The translations under genes were made by a program, and so were the position numbers. Shown here piece by piece: positions 395 through 35,627 of a stretch of 35,670 nucleotides of DNA (its first letter is position 1; each line of letters starts with the position of its first letter). The notes beneath the pieces were generated by a model, which was given only the letters and a program-made list of their open reading frames with translations, was not told the origin of the DNA and did no database searches. Source of the stretch: Acidobacteriota bacterium (lineage in GTDB: Bacteria > Acidobacteriota > UBA6911); contig QHZE01000247.1 of NCBI GenBank assembly GCA_003225335.1, positions 1 through 35,670 on the forward strand, read 5' to 3'.

Positions 395-592
395 CAGACC
401 TCAGACTTCAGACCTCAGACTTCAGACCCTTAGATTCTTTGCGTCTTCGCGCCTTTGTGGTAAAGCCCGCCCCCAATTCACCACGAAGACGCGAAGAATC
501 ACGAAGCGTTTTCCATCAGCCGGAAAATCCTTTCCAAAAAACGAAGGATTTATTGGGTTAGCAGGTCTGAGGTCTGAGGTCTGAGGTCTGAT
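395..592. repeat. Nested repeat block (families A, B, G, A)
   Basis: This gene-free gap holds four repeat pieces in a row. Family A units lie at 395-428. A family B hairpin at about 433-507 has arms like 'GCGTCTTCGCGCCTTTGTGG' and 'CCACGAAGACGCGAAGAATC'. A family G hairpin at 521-555 has arms AAAATCCTTT and AAGGATTT. Family A units return at 564-592. Nothing else is visible here. Confidence 0.75.
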
Positions 593-2149: not shown

Positions 2150-2197
2150 AAATATGCAGTCCTCTCTGTGTCTCGGTGTCTCTGTGGCTAAAGATTG
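2150..2197. repeat. Family C half-element (CTCTGTGTCTC...GTGGCTAAAGATTGG)
   Basis: A single arm of the family C repeat lies between the hydrolase start and the dinB stop. It closely matches the right arm of the full hairpin at 4097-4224, including the downstream AAGATTGG. No opposing arm is seen nearby. Confidence 0.7.
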
Positions 2198-3395: not shown

Positions 3396-3644
3396 TTCGA
3401 ATTGACAATTGACGATTGGCGATTGACGATGGAACGGCCCTGGCAGGGGTCTCCAAAGGAATTATGCATGGCCGTGCCACGTGGCATGGCCGTCCCGGCC
3501 ATGATGAGGCTTTTGGTCAACTTTACACCCACCGGAAGAACCTGCCGAGCAAGCCTCTTAGCGCCAACTCCGCCACGGGTGAGACGCCCGTGCCGCATGC
3601 ATGGCCACAGACCCTAATGGTCAGTTGTTTAAGGGTCCTTGTCA
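3396..3644. repeat. Repeat-filled gap between divergent genes
   Basis: The gap between dinB and the small membrane protein starts with family D units (ATTGACAATTGACGATTGGC). The hairpin CATGGCCGTCCCGGCCATG lies near 3484-3502. A degenerate copy of the CTAG-element end follows at about 3513-3530 (GGTCAACTTTACACCCACC). Near 3577 there is GGGTGAGACGCCCGTGCC, a worn form of the CACGGGCGAGACGCCCGTG hairpin. No promoter could be singled out. Confidence 0.55.
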
Positions 3645-4100
3645 ATGTTTCGGTTTCTTCTGTTGCTCCACCTCGTGGGGCTGGCCTTGGGCTTGGGAGG
3701 GTTGTTGTGTCAGTTGATCCTGCTGGCGAAGTTCCGGCGGGCCAATGACATCACGGAGAGGGCCGGTTCGGAGCGCATGGCGGGATCGGTTATTTCCCTG
3801 ATCCAGGCGCCGGGAGTCTATCTTCTGCTGGTCTCGGGGGCCGGATTGTCATGGCTGGCCCGCTGGGCGCCCCTGCATCAGGGATGGCTGCACTTCAAGT
3901 TGCTGTTTTTCTTCTGGATCTTCCTCGCAACACGTCTGATGGTACGCAATGCAAAAAACATCCACATCCTGCGACAACAATGCGGCGAAGAGGACAGCCA
4001 ACGTCTGCTCTCCTTGAAAGACAACCACAGCGTGATTGGTTACGTAACCATTCTCAGCTTTCTGTTCGTCCTCATCTTCTCCCTCTGGAAACCGATTTAG
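3645..4100 (+). CDS. Small integral membrane protein (DUF2269-like, uncharacterised)
   Basis: This 151-residue protein has about four hydrophobic segments: 'FRFLLLLHLVGLALGLGGLL', 'SLIQAPGVYLLLVSGAGLSW', 'FKLLFFFWIFLATRLMV' and 'IGYVTILSFLFVLIFSLW'. Short charged loops separate them, so it sits in the inner membrane. The topology, with an early histidine in helix 1 and an 'HQGWLHFKL' loop, resembles DUF2269/CopD-like four-helix membrane proteins, but I cannot assign a function. The ATG at 3645 is preferred over the TTG at 3639 because AAGGG lies about nine bases upstream. The TAG stop is itself part of the family C repeat that begins at 4097. Confidence 0.72.
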   Translation: MFRFLLLLHLVGLALGLGGLLCQLILLAKFRRANDITERAGSERMAGSVISLIQAPGVYLLLVSGAGLSWLARWAPLHQGWLHFKLLFFFWIFLATRLMVRNAKNIHILRQQCGEEDSQRLLSLKDNHSVIGYVTILSFLFVLIFSLWKPI

Positions 4101-4224
4101 CCACAGAGACACAGAGCCACGGAGGATCGAGGATGGAGGACAATCTTTGTGTTGTTTGTCTTCAATCTTCGATCTTCAATCCTCGATATTCAATCTCTGT
4201 GTCTCCGTGTCTCTGTGGCTGAAG
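4097..4224. repeat. Family C long hairpin
   Basis: The left arm (TTAGCCACAGAGACACAGAG) and right arm (CTCCGTGTCTCTGTGGCTGA) are near-complementary, and an inner segment of ATCGAGGAT/ATCCTCGAT units also pairs. The element sits between the membrane protein and the SDR gene and contains the membrane protein's stop codon. Relatives lie at 2150, 13917 and 16563. Confidence 0.8.
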
Positions 4225-4281: not shown

Positions 4282-5088
4282 ATGGGATCCGGAAACCTGG
4301 CAGTCGTAACGGGAGCGTCCTCCGGCATTGGATGGGAGATGTCAAAGCAGCTTGCCGCCCGCGGCTACGACCTCCTTCTTGTAGCCCGGCGCGAGGACAG
4401 GCTCCGCGCGCTCGCCTCGGAAGTTTCACACCAAACGGGCCGAAACACCGACGTCCTGGGCGCCGATCTGACGCAGCCGTCGGAGAGGAGGAAGCTGGTT
4501 TCGGCGCTCGAGTCCCGCAAGGAGGCTCTGCAGCTCCTGGTCAACAGTGCGGGGGTCGGCATGGTCGGACCGACCGTGGCGCCACCGCTGGAGCGCATCA
4601 TGAAGCTGATCGAGCTCAACATCACGGCAGTGACAGAGCTCTCGTATGAAACGGCGAAGATCATGATACCCAGGCGGGCGGGCGGTTTGATTAACGTAGC
4701 GTCCACGGCGTCCTTCCAGGCTGTTCCGTATATGAACGTTTATTCGGCCGCCAAGGCCTACGTGCTGAGCTTTACCGAAGCCCTGGGGGAAGAACTACGC
4801 GAGTACGGGATCCGGGTCATGGCGCTTTGTCCCGGGTATACGAAAACGGAATTTCAGGCGGTTGCGGGAGTGAAATATGACGACACCAGATTTCGCTCTG
4901 TCATGAGCGCCGCCGCATGCGCGCGCGCCGGGCTGGACGACTTTGACAAGGGAAAGAGAATCAGTGTCACCGGACTCGGCAACAAGCTGCTTGTCCTCAG
5001 CAGCTGGATAGCGCCCCGGAGCATCACTCTCAAAATCGGCTCCAGATTGATGAAGAACCGCGCCGGTCAGCCACTGAATGACGAGTGA
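4282..5088 (+). CDS. Short-chain dehydrogenase/reductase (SDR), NAD(P)-dependent
   Basis: This 268-residue classical SDR has a Rossmann-fold dinucleotide site 'TGASSGIG' near residues 10-17. 'VARRED' follows at the end of strand 2, whose Arg residues suggest NADPH preference. 'NSAGVG' replaces the usual NNAG. The catalytic residues are Ser in 'VASTASF' and Tyr/Lys in 'YSAAKAYV', and 'CPGYTKTEF' covers the cofactor-lid region. It most resembles the DltE/YqjQ-type 'SDR family oxidoreductase' that acts on lipid or ketone substrates, but the substrate cannot be stated. The start ATG has AGGAGG eight bases before it. The stop codon lies inside the left arm of a family D hairpin (5084-5144). Confidence 0.92.
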   Translation: MGSGNLAVVTGASSGIGWEMSKQLAARGYDLLLVARREDRLRALASEVSHQTGRNTDVLGADLTQPSERRKLVSALESRKEALQLLVNSAGVGMVGPTVAPPLERIMKLIELNITAVTELSYETAKIMIPRRAGGLINVASTASFQAVPYMNVYSAAKAYVLSFTEALGEELREYGIRVMALCPGYTKTEFQAVAGVKYDDTRFRSVMSAAACARAGLDDFDKGKRISVTGLGNKLLVLSSWIAPRSITLKIGSRLMKNRAGQPLNDE

Positions 5089-5144
5089 CGAATGATCTCT
5101 CCGACCGGCTCTTCCGGTTCCATCGCCAATCGTCATTCGTCACT
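5084..5144. repeat. Family D hairpin (AGTGACGAATGA / TCATTCGTCACT)
   Basis: Two perfect 12-base arms, at 5084-5095 and 5133-5144, enclose a smaller ACCGG/CCGGT stem. The SDR stop codon is inside the left arm. It could act as a terminator-like structure but has no U-tract. The right arm abuts the CTAG-ended element. Confidence 0.75.
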
Positions 5145-5445
5145 AGGTCCACTTGGTGGTCGCCAAGTTCACAAACTGGTCAAATTTCGTCCGGGAGGCA
5201 TGGTTGATTGATAAAAGAAAAGAGAGAGAAATGGAACAAGCGCAGTTGTTTTGAAACCGCCGATGAACGCGGATGCACGCCGATGTTCGGTGCCGCACAT
5301 CGGCGTGAATCGGCGGTTCCCCTCGTACCTCCCAGTCACTCACGGGCGAGACGCCCGTGCCACGATGGCTTCGTGGCATGGCCGTCCCGGCCATGATACA
5401 AAACTTGACCGATTTGTGAACTTTGTGTCCACCAAGTGGACCTAG
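5143..5445. mobile_element. CTAG-ended MITE-like element, copy 1 (303 bp)
   Basis: Both ends read CTAGGTCCACTTGGTGG inward. Over the first 45 bases the two ends match at about 39 positions. The interior holds a nested palindrome (AACCGCCGAT...ATCGGCGGTT) and two hairpins, CACGGGCGAGACGCCCGTG and CATGGCCGTCCCGGCCATG. There is no ORF of transposase type. It sits between convergent genes (SDR and the beta-propeller protein). Copies recur at 23749-23968 and, single-ended, at 28892-28997. Confidence 0.8.
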
Positions 5446-5455
5446 TCAATCGGGA

Positions 5456-6504: not shown

Positions 6505-6915
6505 CGAAAACCTTCGCGTTTCTTAGCGTCTTCGCGTCTTGGTGGTAAAGGCTGTGCCCAATCCACCACGAAGACACAAAGACGCGGGACAACGAACTGC
6601 GATTTGTCATTTTTCATTGGTCATTGGTCATTTGTCATTTTATTTTTCTGCGGGCTCTGCGTCTCTGCGATGAGATCCGTTTCGGTTGCGGCTGGGCTGA
6701 TCCGTACTACTAAGGCGAAAATCCTTTGCGATCCGGCAAGGATTTTTGTGCGTACTCCTGGGAGCGCACCCATCCTGTCTTCAGCACAAAGACACGAAGA
6801 ACACAAAGATCCACCACGTCCTTGCCCGTGTGAATCTTCGTGGCTTCGTGTCTTTGTGGTGAGATTTTTTTGGATTGCGGCTGGGCTGCTCCGTCTACTC
6901 CGTGGTGAACACTGA
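6505..6915. repeat. Repeat-filled gap between divergent propeller and sigma-factor genes
   Basis: A family B hairpin lies at about 6505-6590 (TCTTCGCGTCTTGGTGG against CCACGAAGACACAAAGACGC). Family D-like units (CATTGGTCATTTGTCATT) follow at 6606-6640. A family G hairpin preceded by GCGGCTGGGCTGATCCGTAC lies at about 6683-6755, and a second family B hairpin at about 6782-6870. GCGGCTGGGCTGCTCCGT recurs at 6880-6897. The remaining bases up to 7027 show no recognisable motif apart from the sigma gene's ribosome-binding site. Confidence 0.7.
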
Positions 6916-8376: not shown

Positions 8377-9588
8377 ATGATTAGAATCCAGAAAGCATTC
8401 TTGTTTTCCTTACTTCTTCTGGTCCTGGCGGCAGGCGCCCCCATTTCCGGGGTTCGCGCCGACGACTCGAAAGAAGACAGCCTCTACCAACGCGCTTCCA
8501 AGGCTCTGGATGAACGGCGCTGGGACCAGGCGATCGAAGCCTTCAATGAAGTTGTGAGACAGGGAGGCAGCCGAAAGGACGGGGCACTCTACTGGAAGGC
8601 CTACGCGCAGAACAAGCTGGGGCAGAGATCTGAAGCCCTCGAAACACTTCAGGAGCTGAGCAAGAGTTTCCCGAGCAGCCGCTGGTCGAACGACGCCAAA
8701 GCCCTGGAACTGGAGGTCCGCCAGGGTGCAGGCCAGCAGGTTGCTCCCGAGGGCGCGGCCGACGAAGAGCTCAAGCTGATGGCGCTAAACAGTCTGGTCA
8801 ACACCGATTCCGAGCGTGCCATTCCCATGCTGGAGAAGTTCCTCCAGGGAAACCAATCCCCCAAGCTGAAGGAAAAGGCGCTCTTTGTGCTGAGCCAGAG
8901 CGGATCTCCGCGTGCGCGCGAGGTTCTTGCCAAGATCGCGCGGGGCGAGTCGAATCCGGATCTGCAGATGAAAGCGTTGCGGAATCTGGCAATCTTCGGA
9001 GGCCGGGAGAGCCGTCAGGTGATGGCCGACATATATGCTTCGTCCTCGGACACGGCGGTCAAGCGGAGCATCCTTCAGGGTTTTATGATCGCCGGCGACC
9101 GCGAACGCCTGCTGGCCGCGGCGAAGTCGGAGAAAGCGCCGGAACTGCGCATGGATGCCATTCACCAGCTCGGCGTCATGGGTGCGCAGAATGAGCTGTG
9201 GGACCTCTACCGGCCGGAATCCTCGGTAGAGGTCAAGGAGAAGATCCTCCATGCGATGTTTGTGAGCGGCAATGCGGAGAGGTTGATCGAGGTGGCGCGC
9301 AACGAGAAGGATCCCAGGCTGCGCAGGGCGGCCATCCATTCTCTGGGGGTCATGGGATCCAAGGCTTCCGGCGAGGCGTTGGTTTCGATCTATGAGAGCG
9401 ACAAGGACCCGGACATACGGAAACAGGTGATTCAGGGGCTCTTCGTCCAGGGCAATGCGAAAGCCCTGGTTGACCTGGCGCGCAGGGAAACCGACCCATC
9501 TGTCAAAAAGGAGATTGTCGGCAAACTGTCCGTGATGGGGTCCAAAGAGGCCACCGACTACCTGATGGAGATCCTGAACAAAAACTGA
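8377..9588 (+). CDS. Exported TPR/HEAT-repeat protein
   Basis: This 403-residue protein has a signal peptide ('FLFSLLLLVLAAGAPISGVRA'). A TPR-like segment follows at about residues 35-105 ('DERRWDQAIEAFNEVV', 'GALYWKAYAQNKLGQRSEAL'), then about eight HEAT-type helical repeats to the C-terminus. Repeat signatures include 'RMDAIHQLGVMGAQ', 'RRAAIHSLGVMGSK' and 'KKEIVGKLSVMGSK', about 31-37 residues apart. It is a protein-binding scaffold in the periplasm or on the surface, with no catalytic residues visible. It begins 12 bases after the anti-sigma gene with GGAG before the ATG, so it is almost certainly in the same operon and a likely target or sensor partner of the sigma pair. Its exact partner is unknown. 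Confidence 0.87.
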   Translation: MIRIQKAFLFSLLLLVLAAGAPISGVRADDSKEDSLYQRASKALDERRWDQAIEAFNEVVRQGGSRKDGALYWKAYAQNKLGQRSEALETLQELSKSFPSSRWSNDAKALELEVRQGAGQQVAPEGAADEELKLMALNSLVNTDSERAIPMLEKFLQGNQSPKLKEKALFVLSQSGSPRAREVLAKIARGESNPDLQMKALRNLAIFGGRESRQVMADIYASSSDTAVKRSILQGFMIAGDRERLLAAAKSEKAPELRMDAIHQLGVMGAQNELWDLYRPESSVEVKEKILHAMFVSGNAERLIEVARNEKDPRLRRAAIHSLGVMGSKASGEALVSIYESDKDPDIRKQVIQGLFVQGNAKALVDLARRETDPSVKKEIVGKLSVMGSKEATDYLMEILNKN

Positions 9589-9591
9589 ATT

Positions 9592-9632
9592 CACCACAAA
9601 GACGCGAAGGACACGAAGGACACGAAGAAATC
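9592..9632. repeat. Family B repeat arm between two HEAT genes
   Basis: A tract of CACCACAAAGACGCGAAGGA-type units (CACGAAGGA repeated) begins four bases after the first HEAT gene's stop. No complementary arm lies before the next gene, so this is a half-element inside an operon. Confidence 0.7.
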
Positions 9633-11309: not shown

Positions 11310-11535
11310 GGCGCGCCCATTCACCCAAGACGCAAAAACGTGAAGAATCACTAAGAAGATTTTTTAAAACGTGCCATCCGTACTACTACTCGAAAATCCC
11401 TCGTAATCTGGAAAAGATTTTCTTTCCCTGCCATTCTTGGCGCTCTCTTTGCGGACTTCGCGTCTTCGGGGTGAATTCTTCGCCTCGATCGTTCACCGCC
11501 CAGGCGCGAAGTACGCGAAGAAAACGCGAATAGAG
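11310..11535. repeat. Family B and G repeats
   Basis: Family B-type units lie at 11316-11352 (CACCCAAGACGCAAAAACGT) and 11430-11530 (GACTTCGCGTCTTCGGGGTG and AGGCGCGAAGTACGCGAAGA). A family G copy at about 11378-11425 has TCCGTACTACTACTCGAAAA before its hairpin. No gene is visible between the heptad gene and the small membrane protein at 11593. Confidence 0.65.
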
Positions 11536-11580
11536 AAGAGCAGAAAAATTAAATTTTCAAGACCTGACCCCAAATCGATT

Positions 11581-12309: not shown

Positions 12310-12372
12310 ATTCTTTCTCTGCGTCTTCGCGTCTTGGCGGTAAGGACTGCGCCGGATTCACCACGAAGTTGT
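12310..12372. repeat. Family B hairpin
   Basis: The arms TCTGCGTCTTCGCGTCTTGG and TTCACCACGAAG lie just after the second small membrane protein. This starts a 478-base gene-free stretch between convergent genes (12298-12775). The stretch also holds a CATGGCCGTCTCGGCCATG hairpin (about 12468-12486), the 192-bp element, a GGCACGGGTGGGACGCCCGTGCC hairpin (about 12710-12732) and a final family B arm (12752-12772). Confidence 0.65.
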
Positions 12373-12493
12373 CATGTCCTGCGGCTCGCCACCGCGAATG
12401 AAAAGTACGCCCAGATCCTAGCGAGCAACCTCCGGGTCATTCGCGGGTCAGACGGGTCTTCGTGGCATGGCCGTCTCGGCCATGACCAGGTTA

Positions 12494-12685
12494 GGGCCCG
12501 TCAGAAAATAAGGTGTGCATTTTGGCGCGAGCGCCGGGCGGGCAGATGCAAGGCGCCGCGACGCAGGCGATGTGGTGACATCGTCGAGGAGCGGCAACGC
12601 CGCAGATGCCCGCCCGCCGCCGCGCCCCTCCGGGCTGCGGCCCGCAGCCAGCAGCAAAATGTACACCTTATTTCCTGACGGGCCC
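12494..12685. mobile_element. 192-bp MITE-like element with 31-bp terminal inverted repeats
   Basis: The left end (12494-12524) begins GGGCCCGTCAGAAAATAAGG. The right end (12655-12685), read in reverse complement, begins GGGCCCGTCAGGAAATAAGG. The 31-base ends match at 29 positions. TTA lies directly outside both ends and may be a 3-bp target duplication. The GC-rich interior has two further stems: CGGGCGGGCA with TGCCCGCCCG, and CGATGT-GGTG-ACATCG. There is no transposase gene. It sits between convergent genes. Confidence 0.8.
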
Positions 12686-12775
12686 TTAATGCCCACTTCC
12701 CACGGTTTGGCACGGGTGGGACGCCCGTGCCACGAAAGTCCATTTTCAGGAGAGACACGAAGACGCGAAGAATAA

Positions 12776-13846: not shown

Positions 13847-13916
13847 CAGCAGTATAGGGATGGGAGAGTGACATGTAAAGCCCGAGGTGTAATCGCGCCT
13901 CGAGCAAGCCCGATTT

Positions 13917-13979
13917 AGCCCCAGAGATACGGAGGCACCGAGAAAATCTTTTTCTCTGTGTCTCCGTGGCTCTGTGGCT
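13917..13979. repeat. Family C hairpin between GT2 and flippase genes
   Basis: The left arm AGCCCCAGAGATACGGAGGC and right arm GTCTCCGTGGCTCTGTGGCT pair over about 30 bases with a few mismatches and an AAAATCTTTTT centre. It fills the 189-base gap between two cluster genes. Confidence 0.75.
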
Positions 13980-14035
13980 GAAGAAACCGCGAAAGAATTT
14001 AACTGGAGAAAGGGGGGTTGGGCTGGGGAGGAGGG

Positions 14036-15598: not shown

Positions 15599-16515
15599 TC
15601 GAAGGCTCCAGAGACAAGCGCAAAAACATAGACGGCATCGCCGCACGCCCGATGGGGCTCACGCCACACCCGGCGAGGGAACAGAAGGACGTGACGTATG
15701 ATGTCCGAAATCATGCGCCGCAGCATATAGGGGTCTCTCACGCTCAGGTACTTGGCGTAATACGCGCCCTGACCGCGGCCGTAGCTCCAGCCTATTGAGA
15801 CATGGTCTTGTTTAGTCCGCCAGGCACGATGGTAGAGCACTGCCTCCGGCGCGTAGATGATACGAGATCCGGCCTCGAGAAGGCGGAATCCAAAGTCGTT
15901 GTCTTCGGACGAAGGGAAACGCGATCCTACGCCGAGGCGTTCGTCGAAGGCGCCAATGCCGGCGATGACGGTGCGGTACATCGCCATATTGCCGGCCCAG
16001 AGCACATCTTTGCCGACGCGACCCTCGTAGACTTCGCGGACCTCTTCGATTTTGGTTGATGGCGCGAAGGCTCCAGGCGTTTCCGGTGCGGTCGGCAGGA
16101 CCCGGCCTGTCACGATACTGCGCCGCCCTGCGTCGACGAGAGCCCGGATGAGGGAGCCAAACCAGGTGGCCGGCACCACCATGTCGTCATCGGTGAAGGC
16201 AAGAATGTCATGCCGAGCTGCGGCAATGCCGGCGTTTCTGGCTCTGCCTAACCCGACGGACTGCGTCCATAAGTAGCGAATCTCACAGGCGCGATCGGTT
16301 TTCAGGGCTGTCAGGCTCGGATGTTCGACATCACTCTGGTCGATGATGCACAGTTCGGTTGGAAGCTCCGCGCCCTGAAGGATGGACTGGACGCACTCGA
16401 ACAAGAGTTTCGGCCTATTCCGCGAACAGATGACGAGGGAGGTCGCGGGAAGATTTCCCGGCGTGGATGACGCCCCCTGGTGTCCTGGCGCAGATTCCTG
16501 CGTGTTAAATACCAT
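15568..16515 (-). CDS. GT2 family glycosyltransferase (tandem paralog 1)
   Basis: This protein of about 315 residues has GT-A signatures 'SLVICSRNRPKLLFECVQSI', 'ELCIIDQSDVEHPSL', 'GRARNAGIAAARHDILAFTD' with DDDM as the metal-binding site, and 'GAFDERLGVGSRFPSSEDND'. The C-terminus is hydrophobic ('YVFALVSGAFEWLLTQP'). It is closely similar end to end to the next upstream gene, so the two arose by tandem duplication. The track start is a GTG at 16569 inside a family C repeat; the ATG at 16515 with AAGGAA upstream is preferred. Its donor sugar and linkage cannot be read from sequence. Confidence 0.9.
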   Translation of the reverse strand: MVFNTQESAPGHQGASSTPGNLPATSLVICSRNRPKLLFECVQSILQGAELPTELCIIDQSDVEHPSLTALKTDRACEIRYLWTQSVGLGRARNAGIAAARHDILAFTDDDMVVPATWFGSLIRALVDAGRRSIVTGRVLPTAPETPGAFAPSTKIEEVREVYEGRVGKDVLWAGNMAMYRTVIAGIGAFDERLGVGSRFPSSEDNDFGFRLLEAGSRIIYAPEAVLYHRAWRTKQDHVSIGWSYGRGQGAYYAKYLSVRDPYMLRRMISDIIRHVLLFPRRVWREPHRACGDAVYVFALVSGAFEWLLTQPRTR

Positions 16516-16562
16516 CGCTTCCTTATTTCGCCCCGCTGGGGCGGATCGCCGAGTCTTCGGTT

Positions 16563-16611
16563 TAGCCACAGAGACAAGACTATCTCTGTGCCTCCGTGGC
16601 TCCGTGGCTAA
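16563..16611. repeat. Family C element overlapping a gene end
   Basis: The arms TAGCCACAGAGA and CTCCGTGGCTCCGTGGCTA lie in the 64-base gap between two GT2 genes. The right arm runs into the coding end of the upstream gene and encodes its last residues ('HGATEAQR'). Confidence 0.75.
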
Positions 16612-17521
16612 TCTTTAGCTGTGTCCATGCCCAACGAGTTGTCCCGGAGAGAATTCCAGCAATATATACAAGGTCGCCGCAAGCCCTCCGGGGATCCAGC
16701 CATACCAGGCATGGAAAGCGAAAGACACGATGCAGAATATCCCAGGCCATGCGGCGCAGCATGTAGCGGTCCTTGTAGCTGAGGTACTTGCTATAGTACC
16801 CGCCTTTGCCGCGGCCATAACTCCAGCGCGCCGCCATATACTCCCCTTTGCCGCGCCAGGCACGATGATAGAGCACGGCTTCCGGAGCGTAGATGATGCG
16901 ATACCCAGCCTCGAGCAGGCGGAAACCAAGGTCGTTGTCATCGGCGGCGGGAAAATCCGCCCCTGCCCCGAGGCGTTCGTCGAAACCGCCGACGGCGTCG
17001 AGGATGGATCGATACGCAGCCATGTGTCCCCCTGCCAGCACATCAGTGCCGATGCGACCTTCGTAGACCGCCCGAACCTCGCTGGGCATAAATGTCGGCA
17101 CAAAGCCGCCGGGCACTTCCGGTGCGGTTGGCAGCACCCTACCGGTCACGACGGCGCGCTCTCCAGAGTTGAGAAGCGCTCGGATGAGCGAGCCGAACCA
17201 GGCGGGCTCCACGAACATGTCATCGTCTATGATGGCGAGAATGGCGTGCCGCGCCGCGCCGATACCAGTATTCCTGGCCCGGCTCAGCCCGGCCGAGTGC
17301 GTCCACAGGTAGCGAATTTCGCAGGAGCGGCCGCTTTTCAAGCTCGCCAGGGCCGGATGCGGGACACCACTCTGGTCGATGATGATGAGCTCGGTTGGAA
17401 CCTCATCTCCCCGGAGCACCGACTCGATGGTCTCGGCCAGGAGTTTCGGCCTGTCACGCGAGCAGATGATCAGCGATGCCGGCGGGAGGCTCGCCTCCGT
17501 AAGAGAATTGATGTCGGTCAT
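16580..17521 (-). CDS. GT2 family glycosyltransferase (tandem paralog 2)
   Basis: This protein of about 313 residues is the paralog of the gene at 15568. It shares 'CEIRYLWT', 'WFGSLIRAL', 'VTGRVLPTAPE', 'IIYAPEAVLYHRAWR' and 'YMLRRM'. The metal site is 'LAIIDDDMFVEPAW', and 'GGFDERLGAGADFPAADDND' holds the catalytic-base region. The two copies differ most around the acceptor side ('TFMPSEVRAVYEG' against 'STKIEEVREVYEG'), so they may add the same sugar to different acceptors; this is inference. The ATG at 17521 follows the methyltransferase stop by four bases. Its C-terminal residues come from a family C repeat, so the native end has probably been altered. Confidence 0.9.
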   Translation of the reverse strand: MTDINSLTEASLPPASLIICSRDRPKLLAETIESVLRGDEVPTELIIIDQSGVPHPALASLKSGRSCEIRYLWTHSAGLSRARNTGIGAARHAILAIIDDDMFVEPAWFGSLIRALLNSGERAVVTGRVLPTAPEVPGGFVPTFMPSEVRAVYEGRIGTDVLAGGHMAAYRSILDAVGGFDERLGAGADFPAADDNDLGFRLLEAGYRIIYAPEAVLYHRAWRGKGEYMAARWSYGRGKGGYYSKYLSYKDRYMLRRMAWDILHRVFRFPCLVWLDPRRACGDLVYIAGILSGTTRWAWTQLKISHGATEAQR

Positions 17522-18242: not shown

Positions 18243-18269
18243 CAAAATTGAAACCACCGATGAAACAGA

Positions 18270-18342
18270 TCAGACCTCAGACCTCAGGGATCAGACCTCA
18301 GACCTGGAGCCGGAAGTCTGAGGTCTGAAGTCTGAGGTCTGA
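18270..18342. repeat. Family A palindromic repeat
   Basis: The CAGACCT-unit arm (CAGACCTCAGACCTCAGGGA) and complementary arm (AAGTCTGAGGTCTGAAGTCT) are separated by GGAGCCGG. It fills the 119-base gap between the methyltransferase and the next GT2 gene. The family's other copies lie 18 kb away at 41-107, 395-428 and 564-592. Confidence 0.8.
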
Positions 18343-18361
18343 CCTGTTCATACCTTTGCCG

Positions 18362-23575: not shown

Positions 23576-23748
23576 GAAAGCTCCATCAGACTTTCTGAAT
23601 CGCGGATAGTAGCGATGGACCTGGCGCCGATGCGCGCTGGCCCCGCATAGCCGCAATCAAAAAATCTCGCCGCAGTCTCACATGTGCGGCGCACACCCAA
23701 AGCACATGAAAATGTGTCCCGCTGGGGAATGGTGAAGCAATGGTGCAG

Positions 23749-23968
23749 CTAGGCCCTCTTGGTGGACACAAAGTTCACAAAATGGTCAAATTTTTGCGTC
23801 ATCGCGGGCGCAGGTTCGGAGTTCAGCCTTCAGGCTGCACTGGCGCCGGGCAGGCTAAAGCCTGAACTCCAAACGGGCCGTGCCACGATGGCTTCGTGGC
23901 ATGGCCGTCCCGGCCATGATACAAAACTTGACCGATTTGTGAACCTTGCGTCCAGCAAGTGGACCTAG
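23749..23968. mobile_element. CTAG-ended MITE-like element, copy 2 (220 bp)
   Basis: Its left end (CTAGGCCCTCTTGGTGGACA) and right end in reverse complement (CTAGGTCCACTTGCTGGACG) match the ends of the 5143-5445 element. The right interior again carries the CATGGCCGTCCCGGCCATG hairpin and CACGATGGCTTCGTGG. The left interior differs and has a TTCAGCCTTCAGGCTGCACTG/GGCTAAAGCCTGAACTCC palindrome. It fills most of the 459-base gap 23576-24034 between two cluster genes; the rest of the gap shows nothing. Confidence 0.8.
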
Positions 23969-24034
23969 TTGCCCCACTCGGTATTCTCGGAACAGAGACG
24001 CGGAGGCCGTCCCTGGAAGCGTGCACTCCCAGGT

Positions 24035-25911: not shown

Positions 25912-25990
25912 ATTTTCTTCGCGTCCTTCGCGGCTTCGCGGTGAATGCCGGGCTGGACTTTCACCGCGAAGGACACGAAGAAAACGCGAA
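25912..25990. repeat. Family B hairpin between GT4 and LtaS-like genes
   Basis: CTTCGCGGTGAA (25934-25945) pairs perfectly with TTCACCGCGAAG (25960-25971), and the flanking GTCCTTCG and CGAAGGAC-type units extend the pairing. It occupies almost the whole 101-base gap. Confidence 0.8.
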
Positions 25991-28794: not shown

Positions 28795-28997
28795 GAGACG
28801 TCCTCACACTGGCTTCGCCAGCGATGGGCACGACCTCAGTCGTGCCGGAAGAAAGGGGGCGATAAGGGAGGGCACGGCTTCAGCCGTGCCGTTAGGTTTT
28901 CTTGGTGGACACAAAGTTCACAATTCGGTCAAGTTTTGTATCATGGCCGGGACGGCCGTGCCACGAAACCATCGTGGCACGGGCGTCTCGCCCGTGA
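28795..28997. repeat. Hairpin cluster and single-ended CTAG-element copy
   Basis: CTGGC-TTC-GCCAG and two perfect 8-bp stems, GGCACGAC-CTCA-GTCGTGCC and GGCACGGC-TTCA-GCCGTGCC, lie at about 28810-28890. From 28892 a single end of the CTAG family follows (CTTGGTGGACACAAAGTTCA). It continues through GTATCATGGCCGGGACGGCC and CACGGGCGTCTCGCCCGTG to about 28997, matching the right half of the 5143-5445 copy in reverse orientation. No opposite end was found before 29211. The 28998-29210 rest shows nothing. Confidence 0.7.
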
Positions 28998-29210
28998 CTC
29001 ACTTGGCGGTATGAGGCTGCTCGCCATAGATTGGCGATTTGCCGCAGAGGCCCAAAAGGGCGACAGTGACCAGGACACCGCGGAGTGTGCGACTGGATTG
29101 TCGAGAAGATGACTGAGCGCCGAAGGTGCGGCAGACGCGGATTGTCGGTCCTTCGCGCCTCAGATTACGGGTCCTGGCGGCCCCGGCCCTCACGGCCCTG
29201 ACGGGCGGGG

Positions 29211-30507: not shown

Positions 30508-30663
30508 TCAAAGGGGCAAAGGGGCAAGAGGACCCCTTCCGATGGCCGAACCCTGGCAAAAAGCGTCATGAATGAATGCGTCTCCTGGAAGATTCGCCGG
30601 ATTTATTTTGCGACGAAAGATACGGTCTCACTGCGGAAAAGCGGTTCCCCTTTGCCCCTTTGA
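30508..30663. mobile_element. 156-bp element with perfect 17-bp inverted repeats
   Basis: TCAAAGGGGCAAAGGGG at 30508-30524 is the exact reverse complement of CCCCTTTGCCCCTTTGA at 30647-30663. The interior shows no further structure and no gene. It sits in the 321-base gap between the nucleotidyltransferase/kinase and the GT2 gene; nothing else was seen there. Confidence 0.7.
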
Positions 30664-31954: not shown

Positions 31955-32162
31955 TGCAATTAAAAGTGGAGTCAAGCACCGCCGCCAGAGAGTGTGGAGA
32001 ATTGTATTTCAGACCAATGACATCCAAATGACAGCGATCGTTTTCGTGAAATTCGTGGAATTCGTGGCCAGTAAAAACCACCACGAATTCCACGAATTAA
32101 ATTCTCTCCAACTCTTCTCAGGAGTTCACGACAGTGTCCATTGACTCCCACTTCTAATTGCA
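31955..32162. mobile_element. 208-bp element with inverted-repeat ends and nested family B hairpin
   Basis: The left end TGCAATTAAAAGTGGAGTCA and right end in reverse complement TGCAATTAGAAGTGGGAGTC match over about 22 bases with one gap. Imperfect pairing continues inward (GAGAATTGTATTT against AATTAAATTCTC). The centre holds a family B hairpin made of TTCGTGGAATTCGTGG and CCACGAATTCCACGAA. No transposase is present. Confidence 0.7.
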
Positions 32163-32383: not shown

Positions 32384-32840
32384 AGAGCGTAACTTGAACC
32401 CAGACGGAATCCCTTCTCGTGGACAGAGACTGAATCACTCCCGGGGAATCCTCGTATTGCACATGATCCAGCGGCCCTCCGAAGCACGAGTTCTTGAAGC
32501 GAGGCTGGGTTAGACGGATATTGCCCCGTTTTCTTTTCCTGCAAGCCCCGCCCCTCTTTCAGGGAAGAGCGCTCACAAAAGAGCAAAGGCAGAAAGCGTA
32601 GAGCGCCTGACCGAAGCTGCGCGTAACAACGCTGTGTTGTTGTTTGCGCGCCGGAAGACCTCAGCCCTCCCCGGTTCTCCTCGCTGTTTGTCCTGCTAGC
32701 CAATTTCCATCCTCGCGGTGTGTGAACGCAGGGAGTTTCCTGCGATCCATGCCGGCGTTTCAACCAACTGGGCGGGAGCCTGCCTGCTACGTTCTTGGTG
32801 TGCAGGCTTCCGCGCCGCGTCTTGGGGAAGGTGTGTTCCG

Positions 32841-35627
32841 ATGCAAGCATGGATTGGACAGGCTCGATTTCTACAATTACTCAGGCTCCTCGTACTGCTT
32901 TATCTGGCTGGAAACACTCGCGCTTTCGCTGTCGATGTCACTTTGTCCTGGGACCCGAACAGCGAGCCCGCCGTTGCCGGATACAACCTTTATTACGGCA
33001 CGGCGGCGCGGACCTACAGCGAAACAATCGTGGTTGGCGACAAGACGAGTTACACCGTGACCGGACTCGGAGGAGGAACGTACTTTTTTGCCGTTACCGC
33101 GTACGACATCTTGGGAAACGAAAGCAGCTATTCCAACGAGGTCTCACAGACGGCGTCTCCTGCCGGTTGCACATACTCGATTTCTCCCCTCAGCCAGTCC
33201 TTTGCGAGCGCCGGGGGAACAGGGAGCGCGGCCGTATCGTCATCAACCGGCTGCAGCTGGCCGGCGGCAAGCAACGCCGGCTGGATCACGATCACTTCGG
33301 GCGGCAGTGGAGGGGGCAACGGCACGGTGACGTACACCGTTGAGACCAACAGCTCAACCAGCTCCCGAACGGGGACCATGACTATTGCGGGCCGGACCTT
33401 CACGGTGACCCAAGCCGGCTCAGTCCCGCCCACGACGTCATCCTTCGACCTGCGCGTCACGAGCGCCTCGGTCGGGAGTGTGTCGCTCGCATGGAACAAG
33501 GCGACCGACCCGGCTGCCGTAAACTACAACTTGTACCGGGGCACCGCGTCCGGGAACTACGAGACCTACGCCGATCTGAACGTTGCCACCACGAGCTACA
33601 CGTTCACGGGGCTCACGCCCGGCGTTACCTACTACTTCGCGATTAGCTACGACACCTGGACCGCCGGGGAAAGCGACTATTCCGACGAGGTGTCGCAAAC
33701 GGTGCCTGCCGTGGTCTCGCAGACGATGTCTGCCGAGGTCTCGCAAACGGCGCCTGCCGCCTGCCTATACTCGATTTCTTCCCTCGGCCGTTCCTATGGG
33801 AGCGCCGGTGGAACTGGGAGAGCGACCGTAGCCTCATCAACCGGCTGCGGCTGGGGGGCAGCAAGCGATGCCAGTTGGATGACGATCACCGCGGGCGGCA
33901 GTGAGAGGGGAAACGGCACGGTGGCGTACACCGTGGAGGCCAACAAATCAGCCAGCTCCCGAACGGCCGCACTGACCATTGCGGGGCAGAGCTTCCGGGT
34001 GACCCAGGCAAGCTCACAGTCGGAGATCTGCACTTACAACATTTCGCCGGCCAGTCACTCCTTCCCTAATACCGGCGGCTCAGGCACCCTCTCCATATCG
34101 TGCCGGAGTGGTTACGCATGGACCGTCTCAGGCGCTCCAGAGTGGATAAACATAAACTCCGCCGGCAGCGGCACGGGCGATGGCGCCGTGACGTTCTCGC
34201 TTGAGCGTAACAGCGGCAAACACCGCCGGCGGGGGGAACTGACCGTCGCAGGGCAGACTCTCGTTGTCGAGCAGGCAGGGAGAAACAAGACCGCATTCCC
34301 CCAGGTGGCCAACGGCGCGCAATGGGTTTCTTCCATCGTCCTGACCAATCCGTCGGCGACGGAAACCGTGACCGGTTCCATGAACTTGCTGAATGATGGC
34401 GGCCAACCGCTGCTTGTCTCTCTTAACAATCAACCGCCTGCCGAAACGGTCTCTTTCGCGATATCGCCTTTGGGCGGCGCGACATTCACTACCGACGGAG
34501 CCGGGGACCTCGTGTCCGGATCGGCGCAAGTCAGCTCCGATAACCCCGTATCAGGGGTCGTCAAATACTCCCACCCGGCCTTCGGAATGGCGGGTGTTGG
34601 AGAAAGCCATCCGCTTCGAAGTCTTATGACGCCCGTGCTGTGCGATAGAAACCGGGGGCTGAATACCGCGGTGGCGCTGCACAATACATCGGACAGCCCG
34701 GTCGAGATGAGACTGTCGCTGCGCGGCCTCGACGGTCGCGAGGTAGCCCGAGGATCAAGCTCCGCGGTGCTTCCCGCAGGCGGCCATGTCGCCAAATTCA
34801 TTGACGAGCTATTTCCGGGCGTCGATGCCTCCAGCTTTCAGGGCACCCTGGTTGTCAGGTCATCCGGGCTGGAACAAAGTGTGACCGCGACCACGATTCA
34901 GACCGGAGGCTCCGTTGGAGAATTCACCACCCTCCCTGTGATACCTCTCGATCCCGCACCGGCACCGAGGGAGTTGTTCTTCGCTCAACTTGCCGCCGGC
35001 GCGGACTGGACTTCGGTTCTGTTCCTGACCAACCCCAAGGGCACGGCCAGCAACAATCAACTCGCTTTTTATGACGATGAGGGCCGCCCCTTGCCAATAT
35101 CGGTTAACGCCCATCCGGCCGCCCCCGGCGTCTCGTCAAACATCCAGCCTCAGGGCGCGGTTACTCTTTCCGCTGGCGGAAACGGGAGCCTCGTGTCGGG
35201 TTCCGCCAGGGTACATGCCAGCGGCGCCGTGGGAGGCGTATTGAGTTTGACTTCTCCCGGCTTGGGCGTGGCGGGAGTCGGCGCGAGCATCCCAAGCGAC
35301 GGCTTTATCGCGCCTGTGACACGAAGCGCAACAGAAAGTTCGAGCACGGGAGTCGCGATTGCCTCTACGGGTTTACCCGTGAAGGTGACTTTGACGCTGA
35401 GGGACGAAAAGGGAAAGCCAGTTTCAGGCGGAGGCGCCACGTTGGAATTGTCGGCAAATGGACACCTGGCCCGTTACCTCGAACAGCTATTCCCGGATGC
35501 GGACACGCGCGAATTCCGTGGGGCCGTTACCGCGACCGCGGAGGGGGGCAGCATTGTGGGAGCTGTGCTTGAGTTTCACAGCAAGGCGCGCCAGATTACA
35601 GCGCTCCCTGTGATACCGCTGCAGTGA
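32841..35627 (+). CDS. Secreted multidomain FN3/BACON protein with duplicated C-terminal module
   Basis: This 928-residue protein has a signal peptide (residues 1-30, 'LLRLLVLLYLAGNTRAFA'). Domains follow in order: fibronectin III at about 31-104, BACON-type domain 110-192 ('CTYSISPLSQSF' to 'GRTFTVTQAG'), fibronectin III 201-288, a VSQT-rich linker, BACON 308-390, and BACON 397-479. Two related modules fill about 486-705 and 706-928. They begin 'FPQVANGAQWVSSIVLTNP' and 'FFAQLAAGADWTSVLFLTNP', and end 'TTLPVIPL' and 'TALPVIPL'. The domains suggest binding of glycans or cell surfaces; no catalytic domain is visible. No LPxTG, PEP-CTERM or type 9 sorting signal is seen at the end. The ATG at 32841 follows GGGGAAGG and gives the signal peptide; the track's GTG at 32718 is less likely. 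Confidence 0.85.
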   Translation: MQAWIGQARFLQLLRLLVLLYLAGNTRAFAVDVTLSWDPNSEPAVAGYNLYYGTAARTYSETIVVGDKTSYTVTGLGGGTYFFAVTAYDILGNESSYSNEVSQTASPAGCTYSISPLSQSFASAGGTGSAAVSSSTGCSWPAASNAGWITITSGGSGGGNGTVTYTVETNSSTSSRTGTMTIAGRTFTVTQAGSVPPTTSSFDLRVTSASVGSVSLAWNKATDPAAVNYNLYRGTASGNYETYADLNVATTSYTFTGLTPGVTYYFAISYDTWTAGESDYSDEVSQTVPAVVSQTMSAEVSQTAPAACLYSISSLGRSYGSAGGTGRATVASSTGCGWGAASDASWMTITAGGSERGNGTVAYTVEANKSASSRTAALTIAGQSFRVTQASSQSEICTYNISPASHSFPNTGGSGTLSISCRSGYAWTVSGAPEWININSAGSGTGDGAVTFSLERNSGKHRRRGELTVAGQTLVVEQAGRNKTAFPQVANGAQWVSSIVLTNPSATETVTGSMNLLNDGGQPLLVSLNNQPPAETVSFAISPLGGATFTTDGAGDLVSGSAQVSSDNPVSGVVKYSHPAFGMAGVGESHPLRSLMTPVLCDRNRGLNTAVALHNTSDSPVEMRLSLRGLDGREVARGSSSAVLPAGGHVAKFIDELFPGVDASSFQGTLVVRSSGLEQSVTATTIQTGGSVGEFTTLPVIPLDPAPAPRELFFAQLAAGADWTSVLFLTNPKGTASNNQLAFYDDEGRPLPISVNAHPAAPGVSSNIQPQGAVTLSAGGNGSLVSGSARVHASGAVGGVLSLTSPGLGVAGVGASIPSDGFIAPVTRSATESSSTGVAIASTGLPVKVTLTLRDEKGKPVSGGGATLELSANGHLARYLEQLFPDADTREFRGAVTATAEGGSIVGAVLEFHSKARQITALPVIPLQ

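Follow-up and report, generated by a model that had tools for sequence, protein, structure and literature searches.

The DNA between positions 395 and 592 of this stretch is built around a large hairpin whose arms consist of a short word repeated in tandem, and it raises the question of what such hairpins are, how their two arms remain complementary and by what route they reach new sites. The window analysed here is the whole stretch of 35,670 nucleotides, which is part of contig C264 in an assembly of 7.54 Mb and 795 contigs that is probably metagenome-derived. Together with 40 further stretches of the same genome (731 kb) the window makes up a sample of 767 kb, in which seven word families were tracked; since the stretches were picked around A and B matches, densities in this sample are not genome averages. 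Hundreds of such small hairpins lie between the genes of this bacterium, each with a word of 7-10 nt repeated along one arm and its reverse complement along the other. The answer that we consider probable is that these are non-coding, intergenic hairpin modules of tandem words, which undergo slippage and are spread and replaced as units.

Tandem-word hairpins in the window

The search for local inverted repeats in the window (score of at least 32) gave 12 cases as compared to 0 in each of six dinucleotide shuffles, and the majority are made of tandem words of 7-8 nt; those at 12493-12686, 23741-23976 and 30508-30663 are not word arrays. RNA folds of eight window elements had z-scores of -4.1 to -9.0. 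These results bear out the earlier note in that the arms are internally repeated and form hairpins, and the four word families that it had named A to D are all present in the window, with 17 array matches for A, 18 for B, 17 for C and 11 for D when overlapping words and a few weak matches are counted. The unit is 7 nt long in A (CAGACYT) and D (TGACNAA) and 8 nt in B (ACGCGAAG) and C. Additional families in the genome are E, (AATCCGC)n, which is also a 7-nt array, F, (TTCACGAAT)n, and G, (ACAGATGAAC)n. The A, B, D and E words have no runs of three G and so do not qualify as G-rich quadruplex formers. Genome-wide, the B pattern was found in 320+300 places and its reversed pattern in 1. The A pattern was found in 90+85 places and the reversed A pattern in 42+39, the latter being a poor control because it resembles the A word itself. 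No part of the window matched Rfam at gathering thresholds.

The elements of the window are the following, with the strand given for single arms.

42-106: A hairpin of CAGACYT words (inverted-repeat search; RNA fold z -4.6)
395-428, plus strand: left arm of the outer A hairpin, 4.9 units of 7 nt (word and inverted-repeat searches)
435-497: B hairpin of ACGCGAAG words nested in the A loop, with a loop of the shared B type (RNA fold z -5.1)
562-591, minus strand: right arm of the outer A hairpin, 4.1 units (DNA fold of 393-592, z -10.4)
2163-2186, minus strand: C half-element, a single arm (word search)
3401-3430, plus strand: one-armed D array of ATTGACG words, which recur in many genomes of the class
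4096-4223: C hairpin with an inner nested hairpin of 7-nt words, TCTTCAA/TCTTCGA (RNA fold z -9.0)
5078-5142: D hairpin of TGACGAA words with a unique loop
6519-6583: B hairpin (RNA fold z -4.1)
6602-6640, minus strand: one-armed D array of ATTTGTC words
6781-6862: B hairpin of the +- type within a larger dispersed host repeat, its loop common to L041 and L067 (RNA fold z -7.5)
9587-9627, plus strand: B half-element, a single arm (word search)
11407-11562: B hairpin with long and imperfect arms (inverted-repeat search)
12315-12377: B element with a degenerate right arm
13914-13982: C hairpin (RNA fold z -8.5)
16583-16606, minus strand: C half-element
18264-18348: A hairpin (RNA fold z -6.2)
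25913-25984: B hairpin (RNA fold z -5.9)
32050-32098: F hairpin of CACGAATTC words (inverted-repeat search)

The hairpin that had been described at 395-592 has genuine A arms but is not a simple A element, as it encloses the complete B hairpin at 435-497. The half-elements reported near 2150 and 9592 are both real and are one-armed arrays. The word arrays also yield spurious predicted reading frames (MTNDQ, LVIGHWSLVI).

Position relative to genes and turnover at phage junctions

The two arms of an element stand in a fixed inverted orientation. Consecutive arm pairs in the 767 kb were +- in 22 of 25 cases for A (-+ in 2) and in 22 of 22 for D, while E pairs were -+ in 23 of 24 and never +-. 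B comprises two types, -+ with loops mostly of 21-25 or 30-34 nt and +- with loops mostly of 15 or 36 nt. Relative to the genes given by a simple ORF caller, which marked 83% of the DNA as coding (estimated coding fraction 0.83), 21 of 30 A, 52 of 54 D and 33 of 38 E elements lie between genes. Divergent spacers hold 11 of the 106 A, D and E elements against 25% expected by length (p = 3e-4), a depletion that is weaker when spacers are counted by number (p = 0.07). For B, C, F and G no depletion between divergent genes was found in the 767-kb sample. Elements in tandem spacers tend to lie closer to the upstream stop codon than to the next start, with median distances to the stop of 11 nt for A, 17 nt for E and 49 nt for B; this closeness reaches significance in C alone (p = 0.002), is borderline in B and E and is not significant in A and D.

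The closeness to stop codons and the depletion of A, D and E between divergent genes are also in keeping with functional intercistronic hairpins, that is terminators or message stabilisers under selection, for which the stem matters and the word is free to change. That different hairpins repeatedly occupy the same junctions in phages, as described below, favours this explanation too. We nevertheless regard it as rather unlikely, as close relatives have no hairpin at the same junctions (L121 at P1, L091 at s3, L093 at s3 and s7, L094 at s6), the stems of the listed elements are not consistently followed by a T-run, and the depletion between divergent genes is absent in B, C, F and G.

No close cellular relative of the window's genome was found in the collection for empty-site comparison, the best coding identity being about 70%, and gain and loss were therefore observed in phages only. 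The strict D-hairpin pattern matched eight stretches in IMG/VR contigs, and relatives were gathered for three of these phages; for phages L089, L085 and L087 the search for relatives returned only themselves. The junctions are flanked by head and tail genes, including those of the major head protein, the portal protein and the tape-measure protein. The compared relatives have 78-93% DNA identity, yet the same junction may be empty, one-armed or filled with hairpins of unrelated words.

Across the capsid region L091, L092 and L099 share about 93% identity, yet they are unlike one another at the junctions s3, s5 and s6. At the junction downstream of the capsid gene an (AAGTTGC)n hairpin is found in L091, the B-like (GGCGCGAA)n in both L092 and L099, (GTTGCGA)n in L094, CATGGGCGTCTCGCCCATG in L096 and (AGGTGACA)n in L097/L098. 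At s3 a hairpin is absent from L091, whereas L092 has a short and GC-rich one, L099 (TTGCCTA)n, L094 one of B type and L097 its own word, and L093 is without a hairpin at both s3 and s7. A D-like hairpin at s6 is common to L091 and L092 and differs in length between them, with another hairpin in L099 and an empty junction in L094. One word is found at three junctions of L098, with similar loops. In L116, (AAGGATGA)n hairpins with similar arms and unrelated loops occupy four junctions. Four junctions were compared between L116 and L117, whose flanks are about 83% identical. D words are present in both phages at one of them; the remaining three hold (AAGGATGA)n in L116 and, in L117, D words, (TGACGAA)n, in two cases and (GGGTGGAG)n in one.

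At the junction before the portal gene (P1) stop and start are just a few bases apart in L121, while L120 has a one-armed array there and L119 a D hairpin of about 95 nt. The empty junction of L121 (L121:258-268) reads TGACCAATG, consisting of the stop, CCA and the start, and is the same as the D word. A D array has stops in all frames on one strand and is open in all frames on the other. Duplication of a stop-start junction such as that of L121 was considered as the origin of the arrays, but no junction of this kind is present in the words of A, B and E, and it gives no general explanation.

Among these phages, hairpins are gained, lost and altered in word at fixed sites, and at s6 one arm has changed by whole units. 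Exchange of whole junctions by recombination between phages is possible and would look similar to module turnover. Phage families with empty, one-armed or differently filled junctions provide a comparative system for the birth, movement and loss of hairpins.

Likeness of the two arms

Template switching is an established mechanism of hairpin formation (PMC8794818; PMC7202029), and in the form of quasipalindrome correction it would make the second arm from the first and keep the arms matched, as the earlier note had suggested for these elements. Arms of the same copy were compared with arms of different copies, and once subfamily was controlled for no excess likeness within copies was found, B lying weakly above expectation. 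In core alignments z was -0.8 for A and -0.2 for E, and word composition also gave nothing for these families. The B cores were slightly more alike within copies (z = 2.7 and 3.1, p = 0.002-0.004), with a borderline result by word composition (p = 0.05-0.08). The D arms had a clear excess both by alignment (z = 3.6) and by word composition (p = 0.0002), which was gone when the permutation was made within the subfamilies TGACGAA and TGACAAA/TGACCAA (p = 0.57), so the two subfamilies explain all of the likeness within D copies. In none of the families did the lengths of left and right arms correlate (Spearman -0.11 to 0.07). Given the uncorrelated lengths and the absence of a general within-copy excess, the arms are not kept alike by mutual copying, at least on the recorded time scale.

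Slippage by whole units, which had been proposed together with arm-to-arm copying, was seen directly between the phage orthologues L091 and L092 at s6. The left arm of L091 has four TTTGCCA units there that are absent from L092, and this expansion is not mirrored in the right arm of L091. Similarly, in each L116 copy the two arms differ in the variable unit AAGGNNGAAGG. Each arm thus gains and loses whole units on its own. Template switching as general maintenance is contradicted for A, D and E, and as an account of the elements as a whole it is unlikely.

Template switching may still act when a hairpin is born, and two cases besides the slight excess in B point in its direction. In the L091 family, the two arms at the capsid-upstream junction both have TCCGAA in L091 and both have TTCGAA in L099, and this is the one place where the arms appear to have changed together. 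The other case is an E copy with its centre near C62:15,067, the exact middle of a 953-bp inverted alignment with 97% identity. The resulting 0.95-kb palindrome (L061:14590-15540, contig C62), the outer 22 nt of which are unique in the genome, represents either an inverted duplication centred on the hairpin or a chimeric assembly.

Spread of whole hairpins and relation to known repeats

Loops were compared after masking of the words, with shuffles as control. B copies had 73 and 74 shared-loop links against 0 in shuffles, forming groups of 20, 7 and 6 of 41 copies and of 13 and 4 of 21. D had 10 links and E had 4, again against 0 in shuffles, with groups of 5 and 4 of 21 copies for D and of 3, 2 and 2 of 21 for E, and one E loop is present in both orientations (L069 and L037). 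As loops in B, D and E are common to several copies, those hairpins were copied as wholes between sites. A loops are unrelated (1 link against 0-1 in shuffles) and A copies could each have formed in place, independent formation and age being indistinguishable here. Another inverted repeat was found inside 16 of 25 long loops, compared with 22% of random intergenic stretches; cases of nesting are D in C (L052:9443), E in C (L069:600), B in G (L036:6615) and C in A (L060:10371). Larger mosaic host repeats (for example TTTTTGGTTGCGGCTG ... CTGGGAGCGCAGGCATCCTG) that embed different word hairpins were seen in intergenic DNA of L031-L070.

The dispersal of B, D and E with shared loops and the larger host repeat around the +- type of B would also suit a classical mini-element, such as REPIN/RAYT or a MITE, mobilised in trans by a transposase. 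This explanation is very unlikely. Y1_Tnp was the transposase class searched, and neither of the two genes of this class in the genome has word arms or inverted repeats within about 3.3 kb. REP/RAYT is thereby excluded for both Y1 transposase genes present, which agrees with the earlier view that the pattern is not of that type. Furthermore, target duplication was not seen, the loops of A and of L116 are unrelated and unrelated words occupy the same phage junction. The elements have in common with REP and REPIN that they are dispersed intergenic palindromes; REPs as usually described are not known to have internal tandem words. A conserved tag of the GTAG/CGTC type at a palindrome end was not noticed among the listed elements. 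Apart from arm-to-arm copying, the earlier interpretation holds with regard to repeated arms, hairpins, slippage and the distinction from REP/RAYT.

An assembly or binning artefact, for which it could be said that the genomes are metagenome-assembled and that the near-perfect 0.95-kb palindrome could be chimeric, has a negligible probability and is contradicted for the class as a whole by near-identical elements in independent samples (L088/L089, L097/L098) and by D-word arrays in finished plasmids of cultured Nostoc, Rhizobium and Serratia.

Outside the window's genome the occurrence is patchy across phyla and the words are recurrent. In the named collection, the scan of which perhaps did not cover the window's genome, A hairpins were found in one other genome, an Ardenticatenaceae MAG (L081, L082); G006, from the same family, and G035, from the same class, also contain A words. 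C and D arm sequences are present in many genomes of the class, and the strict two-armed D pattern was found in 0 of 296 other genomes of the phylum. Blastn located D arrays in Nostoc, Tolypothrix, Fischerella, Rhizobium, Serratia, Yersinia and Pantoea plasmids, and an Aphanizomenon phage has them too; with B and C elements the plasmid searches gave no matches. Six of these outside D arrays were inspected, of which five are one-armed and one is an inverted pair, located between two cytochrome oxidase genes in Nostoc C052 (L122) and recognised by eye below the inverted-repeat threshold.

A literature text search for the words themselves gave nothing relevant. Among the descriptions found, the closest concerns the inverted GGGAATC heptamer arrays in Xanthomonas (PMC4692102), which are dispersed arrays of 2-26 units of a 7-nt word, about 90% intergenic, on average 28 nt from the upstream gene and with 7-8% between divergent genes. 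In 70-75 cases two convergent GGGAATC arrays are able to form stem-loops (PMC4692102). The families described here are similar in the 7-nt tandem words of A, D and E, the variable unit number, the pairing of arrays in fixed inverted orientation and the mostly intergenic location towards the upstream stop with few A, D and E elements between divergent genes. They differ in that the words are not G-rich quadruplex formers, that many families, some of them with units of 8-10 nt, coexist and nest, that loops are common to copies in several families and that they occur in phages. Only D resembles the cyanobacterial STRR sequences of Calothrix and Nostoc, its (TGACNAA)n words matching the arrays in Nostoc, Tolypothrix and Fischerella plasmids. 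The P6b element of the Nostoc trnL intron is a hairpin of degenerate heptanucleotide repeats with variable repeat number (PMC3488679); it differs in being confined to one intron site, and the plasmid arrays inspected are mostly one-armed. The TAACTGA repeats of Beggiatoaceae are likewise intergenic heptamer arrays in many copies and scattered across phyla, but they are direct repeats upstream of start codons and inverted in only 1 of 170 sets (PMC4679880), whereas the arms here are inverted.

Under the favoured reading of modules with slippage, spread and turnover as units, a hairpin would arrive or be born as a unit directly after a stop codon, a placement explained by the least harm being done there. 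It would then drift by slippage and later be lost or overwritten. When transcribed it would form an intergenic stem that may protect or end messages, its presence being dispensable. Such modules would spread within a genome and between phages and bacteria without a gene of their own, probably through replication or recombination errors at hairpins or ends. Searches found no insertion boundary, target-site duplication or enzyme, and movement is therefore inferred from the pattern of copies. As a wider proposal, possible though short of probable, tandem-word hairpins may be a class of gene-less mobile DNA that colonises intercistronic junctions of phages and bacteria, with its own word set in each genome, wholesale replacement at a junction between close phages and the same words in unrelated phyla. 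Heptamer arrays have been noted genus by genus (Calothrix, Nostoc, Xanthomonas, Beggiatoaceae), and no general account of their origin has been given. If the modules move as units without any gene, they represent an unexplained route of DNA spread, and if the hairpins form anew, the same words in distant phyla need another cause.

The window holds further repeats that are not built of words. A second kind of dispersed palindromic repeat is present in three related copies at 5321-5446, 23741-23976 and 28886-29018, with the motifs CACGGGCGAGACGCCCGTGCC ... GACCTAGT / ACTAGGTCC. The 47-nt inverted repeat at 12493-12686 (AGGGCCCGTCAGAAAATAAGGTGTGCATTTTG) is 83% complementary with arms about 100 nt apart, and these are possibly the ends of a mini-element. 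Two adjoining glycosyltransferase-like genes at 15818-17396 are tandem paralogues with 73-76% DNA identity over blocks of 227-300 nt at a spacing of 1036, and internal repeats of 269 nt with 80% identity are found at 33154-34016 within a 969-aa ORF at 32718-35627.
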